DNA of 64,000 nucleotides from Candidatus Steffania adelgidicola (GTDB lineage: Bacteria; Pseudomonadota; Gammaproteobacteria; Enterobacterales; Enterobacteriaceae). The first letter of the stretch is position 1. Each line of letters begins with the position of its first letter. The notes under the pieces were generated by a model that saw nothing but the letters and a program-made list of their open reading frames with translations, did no database searches and was not told the origin of the DNA. The translations under genes and the position numbers were made by a program. Positions 52,686 to 52,797 of the stretch are shown here, in pieces. The stretch lies in the NCBI RefSeq assembly GCF_020541225.1, contig NZ_CP045889.1, positions 496,001 through 560,000 on the forward strand. The letters are read 5' to 3'.

Positions 52686-52714
52686 TTGCTTTTATAAGAT
52701 TAGTAGCGTACTAT
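52686..52714 (+). promoter_or_regulatory. Promoter of the initiator tRNA gene
   Basis: TTGCTT (52686-52691), a 17-base spacer and TACTAT (52709-52714). The standard start point, seven bases after the -10, is 52721, the first base of the mature tRNA. E. coli has a promoter at this place for metY-nusA. Confidence 0.6.
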
Positions 52715-52720
52715 TTCTAA

Positions 52721-52797
52721 AGCGGGGTGGAGCAGCTTGGTAGCTCGTCGGGCTCATAACCCGAAGGTCGTCGGTTCAAATCCGGCCCCCGCAACCA
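52721..52797 (+). tRNA. metY: Initiator tRNA-fMet (anticodon CAT)
   Basis: 77 bases with encoded CCA. Initiator hallmarks are kept: the three G-C pairs closing the anticodon stem (GGG-CTCATAA-CCC), A11-type D stem as in E. coli, and no Watson-Crick pair at 1-72. The mismatch here is A1 opposite A72 where E. coli has C1 opposite A72. Anticodon at 52755-52757. It is placed before rimP-nusA as in E. coli. Confidence 0.97.

Follow-up and report, generated by a model that had tools for sequence, protein, structure and literature searches.

The window analyzed here is a stretch of 64,000 bases, running from base 496001 to base 560000 of a single-contig genome of 1,369,541 bases (about 1.37 Mb), from a bacterium whose family contains many genomes of 0.2 to 1.8 Mb. 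On its forward strand lie leuU, a tRNA-Leu(GAG) gene (52585 to 52671), and downstream of it metY, an initiator tRNA-fMet gene with an encoded CCA (52721 to 52797). Both genes were found by ARAGORN and Rfam, and the two programs agree on 52721 as the 5′ end of metY. Next on the same strand comes the rimP leader RNA (52866 to 52969; Rfam RF01770, 67.1 bits) of a metY-(rimP)-nusA-infB operon; a hairpin scan picked out two hairpins resembling terminators in this RNA. The RNA is followed by open frames at 53303 and 54816, which from their translations we take to be nusA and infB; the latter encodes 887 amino acids. The rimP gene itself is degraded (53056 to 53231), with two short E. coli RimP-like stretches left in different frames; the leader RNA and its terminator-like hairpins are kept despite this. 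Elsewhere in the genome, a truncated open frame similar to MutT (100 amino acids; G000:C1:1185890-1186141, L406) scores under the curated MutT cut-offs, and mutT may be degraded. The metY-nusA-infB operon of E. coli has the same arrangement as the window (PMC6511841). Judged by its sequence and its neighbors, the window's initiator gene is the orthologue of E. coli metY, an ordinary gene heading the nusA-infB operon. From leuU to metY, a terminator scan found nothing resembling a terminator, and a DNA search of the bacterium's own genome for initiator tRNA copies returned one match, metY itself.

The tRNA carries the marks of an initiator, as read from its sequence: a CAU anticodon, A11:U24, and three G:C pairs in the anticodon stem (G29-31:C39-41). 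Position 1:72 is A:A, without a Watson-Crick pair; the sequence of E. coli K-12 metY has C1 and A72. A sequence-only reading of this DNA had pointed out that base 1 is A opposite A72 and that the mismatch is kept, and both letters are indeed there.

Upstream of metY are a −35 element, TTGCTT (52686 to 52691), and a −10 element, TACTAT (52709 to 52714), both on the forward strand and separated by a spacer of 17 bases. The same reading had proposed that this promoter puts +1 on A1, and direct reading confirmed the hexamers, the spacer and the modal position. On its match to the consensus alone, the promoter does not rise above chance. A consensus promoter scan left TTGCTT-17-TACTAT off its list and returned four other promoter-like sites, with 3.9 expected. 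Using hexamer weights that were not fitted, we obtained a promoter score of 6.49. We then shuffled the 60 bases upstream of metY 5000 times, preserving dinucleotides, and a promoter scoring at least 6.5 appeared in 44% of the shuffles, so spacing alone proves nothing. Such a promoter stood at a distance of 5 to 7 bases from the −10 element to the tRNA in 5.4% of the shuffles, and the best promoter lay at 5 to 7 in 9.8%.

A chance match was nevertheless rejected, on the strength of orthology. Primer extension has located the P0 promoter of E. coli metY (TATTTGCAT...TAGAATTTGCCACGTT; PMC6511841), and we found the P0 element upstream of metY in the K-12 sequence. We aligned the window with K-12 and eight other relatives, leaving out two further rows whose coordinates were wrong. 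In larger-genome relatives, which keep the −35 element, P0 mostly reads CTTGC...GCGTA-TAT, and the columns of TACTAT hold TAGTAT, TATTAT, TAATAT, TAGAAT or TACGAT. By sequence and position, TTGCTT-17-TACTAT is the orthologue of the mapped P0.

The alignment also has a gap in the window between the −10 element and the tRNA, ten bases long against most relatives and nine against K-12. The distance from −10 to tRNA is 6 bases in the window vs 15 or 16 in 24 of 26 metY-type loci, selected by eye, from genomes of at least 3.4 Mb; the two exceptions are L045, with 14, and L099, where the best promoter match lies elsewhere. What is left in the window is TTCTAA (52715 to 52720, forward strand), the discriminator plus a leader remnant; about ten bases, GCCACGTTTT in most relatives, are deleted, and the G at −2 has become A. 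As the alignment shows, nearly all of the 5′ leader has been lost through a deletion of some ten bases.

Where would transcription from such a promoter begin? Starts fall mostly 7 bp after the −10 element, with a purine at the start and a preference for G next to it; pyrimidine-rich discriminators move starts downstream, and a pyrimidine is favored just before the start base on that strand (passages of PMC5730371). Since TACTAT ends six bases before A1, the modal start is A1. With G2 next to it, A1 fits a purine start followed by G. Since A also stands at −1 and −2 and the discriminator reads TTC, we predict a start at A1 or A(−1), with some initiation at A(−2) or G2. Two features argue against a start exactly at A1: the TTC discriminator is pyrimidine-rich and would shift starts towards G2, giving a truncated tRNA, and the base before it is A, not the pyrimidine favored there on this strand. 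We predict A1 as +1, and the geometry would fit a leaderless start. The primary transcript likely has a leader of zero to two bases, the exact base being predicted from promoter rules, and we regard initiation on base 1 or right beside it as the best reading, with somewhat better than even confidence.

The explanation we favor, by a little more than an even chance, is that metY has a P0 orthologue, that a deletion of about ten bases brought it up to the tRNA, and that transcripts most likely start on A1 (52721) or the base before it (52720), with a minority, as promoter rules suggest, on 52719 or G2. Where the promoter sits would then be the main determinant of the 5′ end. A transcript that begins on A1 would have a 5′ triphosphate, which RppH could reduce to a monophosphate; an RppH is present in this genome (302 bits, cut-off 241). 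Molecules with one or two extra bases, as well as read-through from leuU, would presumably still be trimmed by RNase P. A1 would keep the 1:72 mismatch that an initiator needs and at the same time offer a purine start. Its origin was most likely drift, as in many small-genome relatives, filtered against pairing with A72; that A1 was the cause of leader loss is less likely.

The sequence-only reading had gone further, proposing that the transcript may need no leader trimming by RNase P. A genome without RNase P was considered and rejected: both its RNA and its protein were found as near full-length matches (RnpB, 322 bits; RnpA, 104 bits). Genome-wide leaderlessness was rejected as well. Of the 40 tRNA genes of the genome, the initiator alone has its best promoter at a distance of 5 to 7; tRNA-Asn and a further tRNA-Met(CAT) are preceded by good promoters eight bases away. 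With the enzyme present, 39 tRNA genes lacking the geometry, and no terminator-like site from leuU to metY, freedom from RNase P is not supported.

A G at −2 is reportedly an RNase P determinant of pre-tRNA-fMet, as the title of Meinnel and Blanquet in 1995 is said to put it. We found it in 74 of 75 distinct upstream sequences of C1 initiators from genomes of at least 2 Mb within the order; the window has A. Among small-genome relatives G(−2) occurs in 19 of 62 C1 genes and 4 of 24 A1 genes (p = 0.28). Since most small-genome relatives lost G(−2) too, its absence does not go with leader loss in particular.

We next looked at base 1 in the family. Among the initiators of 392 genomes, 24 have A1 (the window included), 5 have T1 and 1 has G1, and 349 genomes have C1; none of the genomes with the 30 non-C1 initiators exceeds 1.4 Mb. 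The idea that the window's genome alone has A1 was thus rejected, as 23 other family genomes have it. A1 and C1 species occur together within nine genera (g19, g77, g84, g98, g113, g117, g135, g141 and g146). Citrobacter werkmanii has A1 in one copy, with a distance of 13, which is usual for that copy type. A1 outnumbers T1, as would fit selection against a U1:A72 pair, although three T1 genes, from g126 and g145, do face A72; the T1 genes of g83 and g154 have C72 and T72, respectively. In two genomes of 0.7 Mb from genus g126 (L090 and L091), T1:A72 makes a Watson-Crick pair at 1:72 and the promoter distance is 6. The T1 initiator with C72 (L083, G082) has its mismatch restored, possibly a compensation.

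If the change from C1 to A were tied to the promoter, as the sequence-only reading had it, A1 should go with short distances. We compared 92 initiators from genomes of 2.4 Mb or less, a set of the 30 non-C1 family genes plus chosen C1 genes rather than a random sample. The best promoter lay within 7 bases for 2 of 24 A1 genes (the window and L086), 7 of 62 C1 genes, 2 of 5 T1 genes and not for the single G1 gene. The choice of a best promoter is unreliable in the AT-rich upstream regions of small genomes, and we therefore counted any candidate scoring at least 6.5 at 5 to 7 in the same set: 5 of 24 A1 and 12 of 62 C1 genes. In genus g84, A1 and C1 species share similar promoters at a distance of 9 to 10. 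Since A1 in relatives stands mostly at ordinary distances, the base change occurs without a promoter change. A1 as a mark of close promoters in small-genome relatives generally was rejected, and the comparison that the earlier reading had suggested, base 1 against promoter distance in related symbionts, gave the result it had named as refuting: A1 without a linked promoter. Its interpretation is supported in part, by the orthology with a mapped promoter, the distance shortened by deletion and A1 as the modal start; the link to C1-to-A and the independence from RNase P are not supported.

The strongest rival is ordinary maturation, which we think has perhaps one chance in three. Here metY would be transcribed mainly by read-through from secG-leuU or from a farther promoter, and RNase P would cut before A1; P0 would be a relic in decay, with drift in a reduced genome behind A1, the deletion and the missing G(−2) alike. 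The presence of both RNase P subunits and the open path from leuU to metY agree with this, and metY could be served by read-through from leuU. So does the family survey, in which just one of the 23 other A1 genomes has its best promoter within 7 bases, and so does the loss of G(−2) in most small-genome C1 genes, just 19 of 62 having kept it. Taken in isolation, the farther promoter P-1 of E. coli outperforms P0, whose quantitative contribution at 37°C is described as marginal (PMC6511841). Since a P0-level score is common by chance, P0 need not stay an active promoter after the deletion. Against decay, the −35 element, the spacer length and the GCGTA-TAT core of P0 are well kept, and the deletion is placed such that A1 becomes the modal start.

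To see A1 initiators beyond the family, we scanned a collection of 84,980 species, which gave 89 stretches from many phyla; the 80 listed ones were analyzed. Groups were set by record titles, and two of the Desulfobacterota-like stretches are titled just Proteobacteria. The Nitrospirota set (within L156-L235) consists of records named Nitrospirae, Nitrospira or Thermodesulfovibrio relatives, all 29 counted whatever their score. Among these listed matches, a promoter stands at 5 to 7 in 25 of 29, at distance 5 in 5, 6 in 5 and 7 in 15; at distance 5, the modal start would be G2, not base 1. These close promoters are mostly TTGACA-18-TATNNT or TTGACA-18-TAAGCT. The mismatch is A1:C72 in 23 of the 29 listed Nitrospirota genes, a combination entered once among 4438 initiators (PMC5143459), and G(−2) is present in 2 of the 29. 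The same list held no A1 gene with a close promoter among 15 Desulfobacterota-like and 5 Pseudomonas stretches.

We also drew genomes from three phyla, which we named by the titles of records L204 and L162. The draw gave 112 rows (49/55 matching Nitrospirota genomes, 30/47 Acidobacteriota, and 33 rows from 25 Pseudomonadota); 6 Nitrospirota, 13 Acidobacteriota and 35 Pseudomonadota genomes gave no pattern match. Rows scoring under 7.5 were excluded (30 of 112: 6/49, 5/30 and 19/33, respectively), leaving 82; this rule would exclude the window's own gene, at 6.49. Among the remaining rows, 7 of 12 A1 genes have a close promoter vs 15 of 70 C1 or T1 genes (Fisher p = 0.013, with relatedness ignored). 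A1 goes with a promoter at 5 to 7 in Nitrospirota and part of Acidobacteriota. In the Nitrospirota draw A1 is rare (3/49), and the 16 close-promoter genes are 3 A1, 8 C1 and 5 T1; since C1 and T1 have the close promoter too, the geometry is independent of A1. For one Nitrospira genome we read 37 distinct tRNAs out of 48 matches, and 15 have a promoter scoring at least 9; at 5 to 7 among these stand just the initiator (6) and one tRNA-Leu (7). The Acidobacteriota draw contains three A1 initiators (L325-L327) with an unusual layout, TTGACA followed by TATAAT after about 7 bases.

These data bear on a second rival, an adaptive form of the sequence-only reading's proposal, in which C1 to A was selected for a start at base 1 that bypasses RNase P, the 1:72 mismatch making an initiator tRNA a poor substrate of that enzyme. 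Poor 5′ processing of C1-A72 initiators has been stated (PMC5143459), the deletion, A1 and the loss of G(−2) coincide in the window, and both the listed Nitrospirota matches and the three-phylum draw lean the same way. We nonetheless give this selection little credence: the window's small-genome relatives have no such link, the close-promoter Nitrospirota do not require A1, and all 20 listed Desulfobacterota-like and Pseudomonas genes have A1 without a close promoter. C1 to A as an enabling change is attractive, with some support in Nitrospirota and none in the window's relatives.

The favored reading of the window, promoter placement after a deletion, can be extended tentatively. Near-leaderless initiator tRNAs may be a recurrent, independently evolved class in bacteria that keep RNase P, with promoter placement instead of that enzyme setting the 5′ end of the one tRNA that its 1:72 mismatch would make a poor substrate, although we rate this at about one chance in four. 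Its members would be the close-promoter Nitrospirota, a group of Acidobacteriota and the window's bacterium. A1, in an A:A or A:C mismatch, would be one favored first base of the class because it gives a purine start; C1 and T1 also occur. If so, the odd first base of initiators would be tied to start-site choice. Taken by itself, the window offers a modest case of a leader being lost in a reduced genome.

How does this compare with known systems? To our knowledge, cleavage by RNase P is treated as near-universal for the 5′ ends of bacterial tRNAs. Older work on Streptomyces is said to describe tRNA genes that start at the mature end. The A1:A72 combination is already known, in 39 of 4438 initiators of tRNAdb-CE (PMC5143459, Table 2). 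The literature passages on leaderless tRNAs that our search covered, PMC10100707 among them, concern Nanoarchaeum, most subscription papers lying outside its range; the passages seen of two papers on start sites and RNase P (PMC4681348 and PMC3848588) tell of no leaderless tRNA. The closest system is E. coli metY with P0, which shares with the window the gene, its place in the operon, the TTGC of the −35 element and the 17-base spacer. The window differs in having A1 instead of C1, in lacking about ten leader bases and G(−2), and in its leuU just upstream, its degraded rimP and the single initiator copy found. A second likeness is to E. coli pre-tRNAs with short leaders, which reportedly (Bowden, 2017) need RppH before RNase P can act. 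In both cases the leader is, or is predicted to be, so short that the 5′ triphosphate matters, and the window's genome has RppH; those pre-tRNAs, however, are reportedly elongators, whereas the window's is an initiator whose leader may be zero. Finally, Nanoarchaeum equitans has no RNase P, and all its tRNAs are leaderless (Randau 2008, as described in PMC10100707). It resembles the window's bacterium in its reduced genome and in a promoter placement for a start at the mature 5′ end, which for metY is a prediction. It differs in that its initiator starts at −1 (PMC10100707). Unlike Nanoarchaeum, the window's bacterium keeps RNase P and has the geometry in 1 of 40 tRNA genes, not all. The leaderless kind is thus known from Nanoarchaeum; confined to one tRNA of bacteria that possess RNase P, it would be new. 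If some bacteria do make their initiator without RNase P but keep the enzyme for their other tRNAs, they would represent an intermediate stage on the way to the state that Nanoarchaeum has reached.
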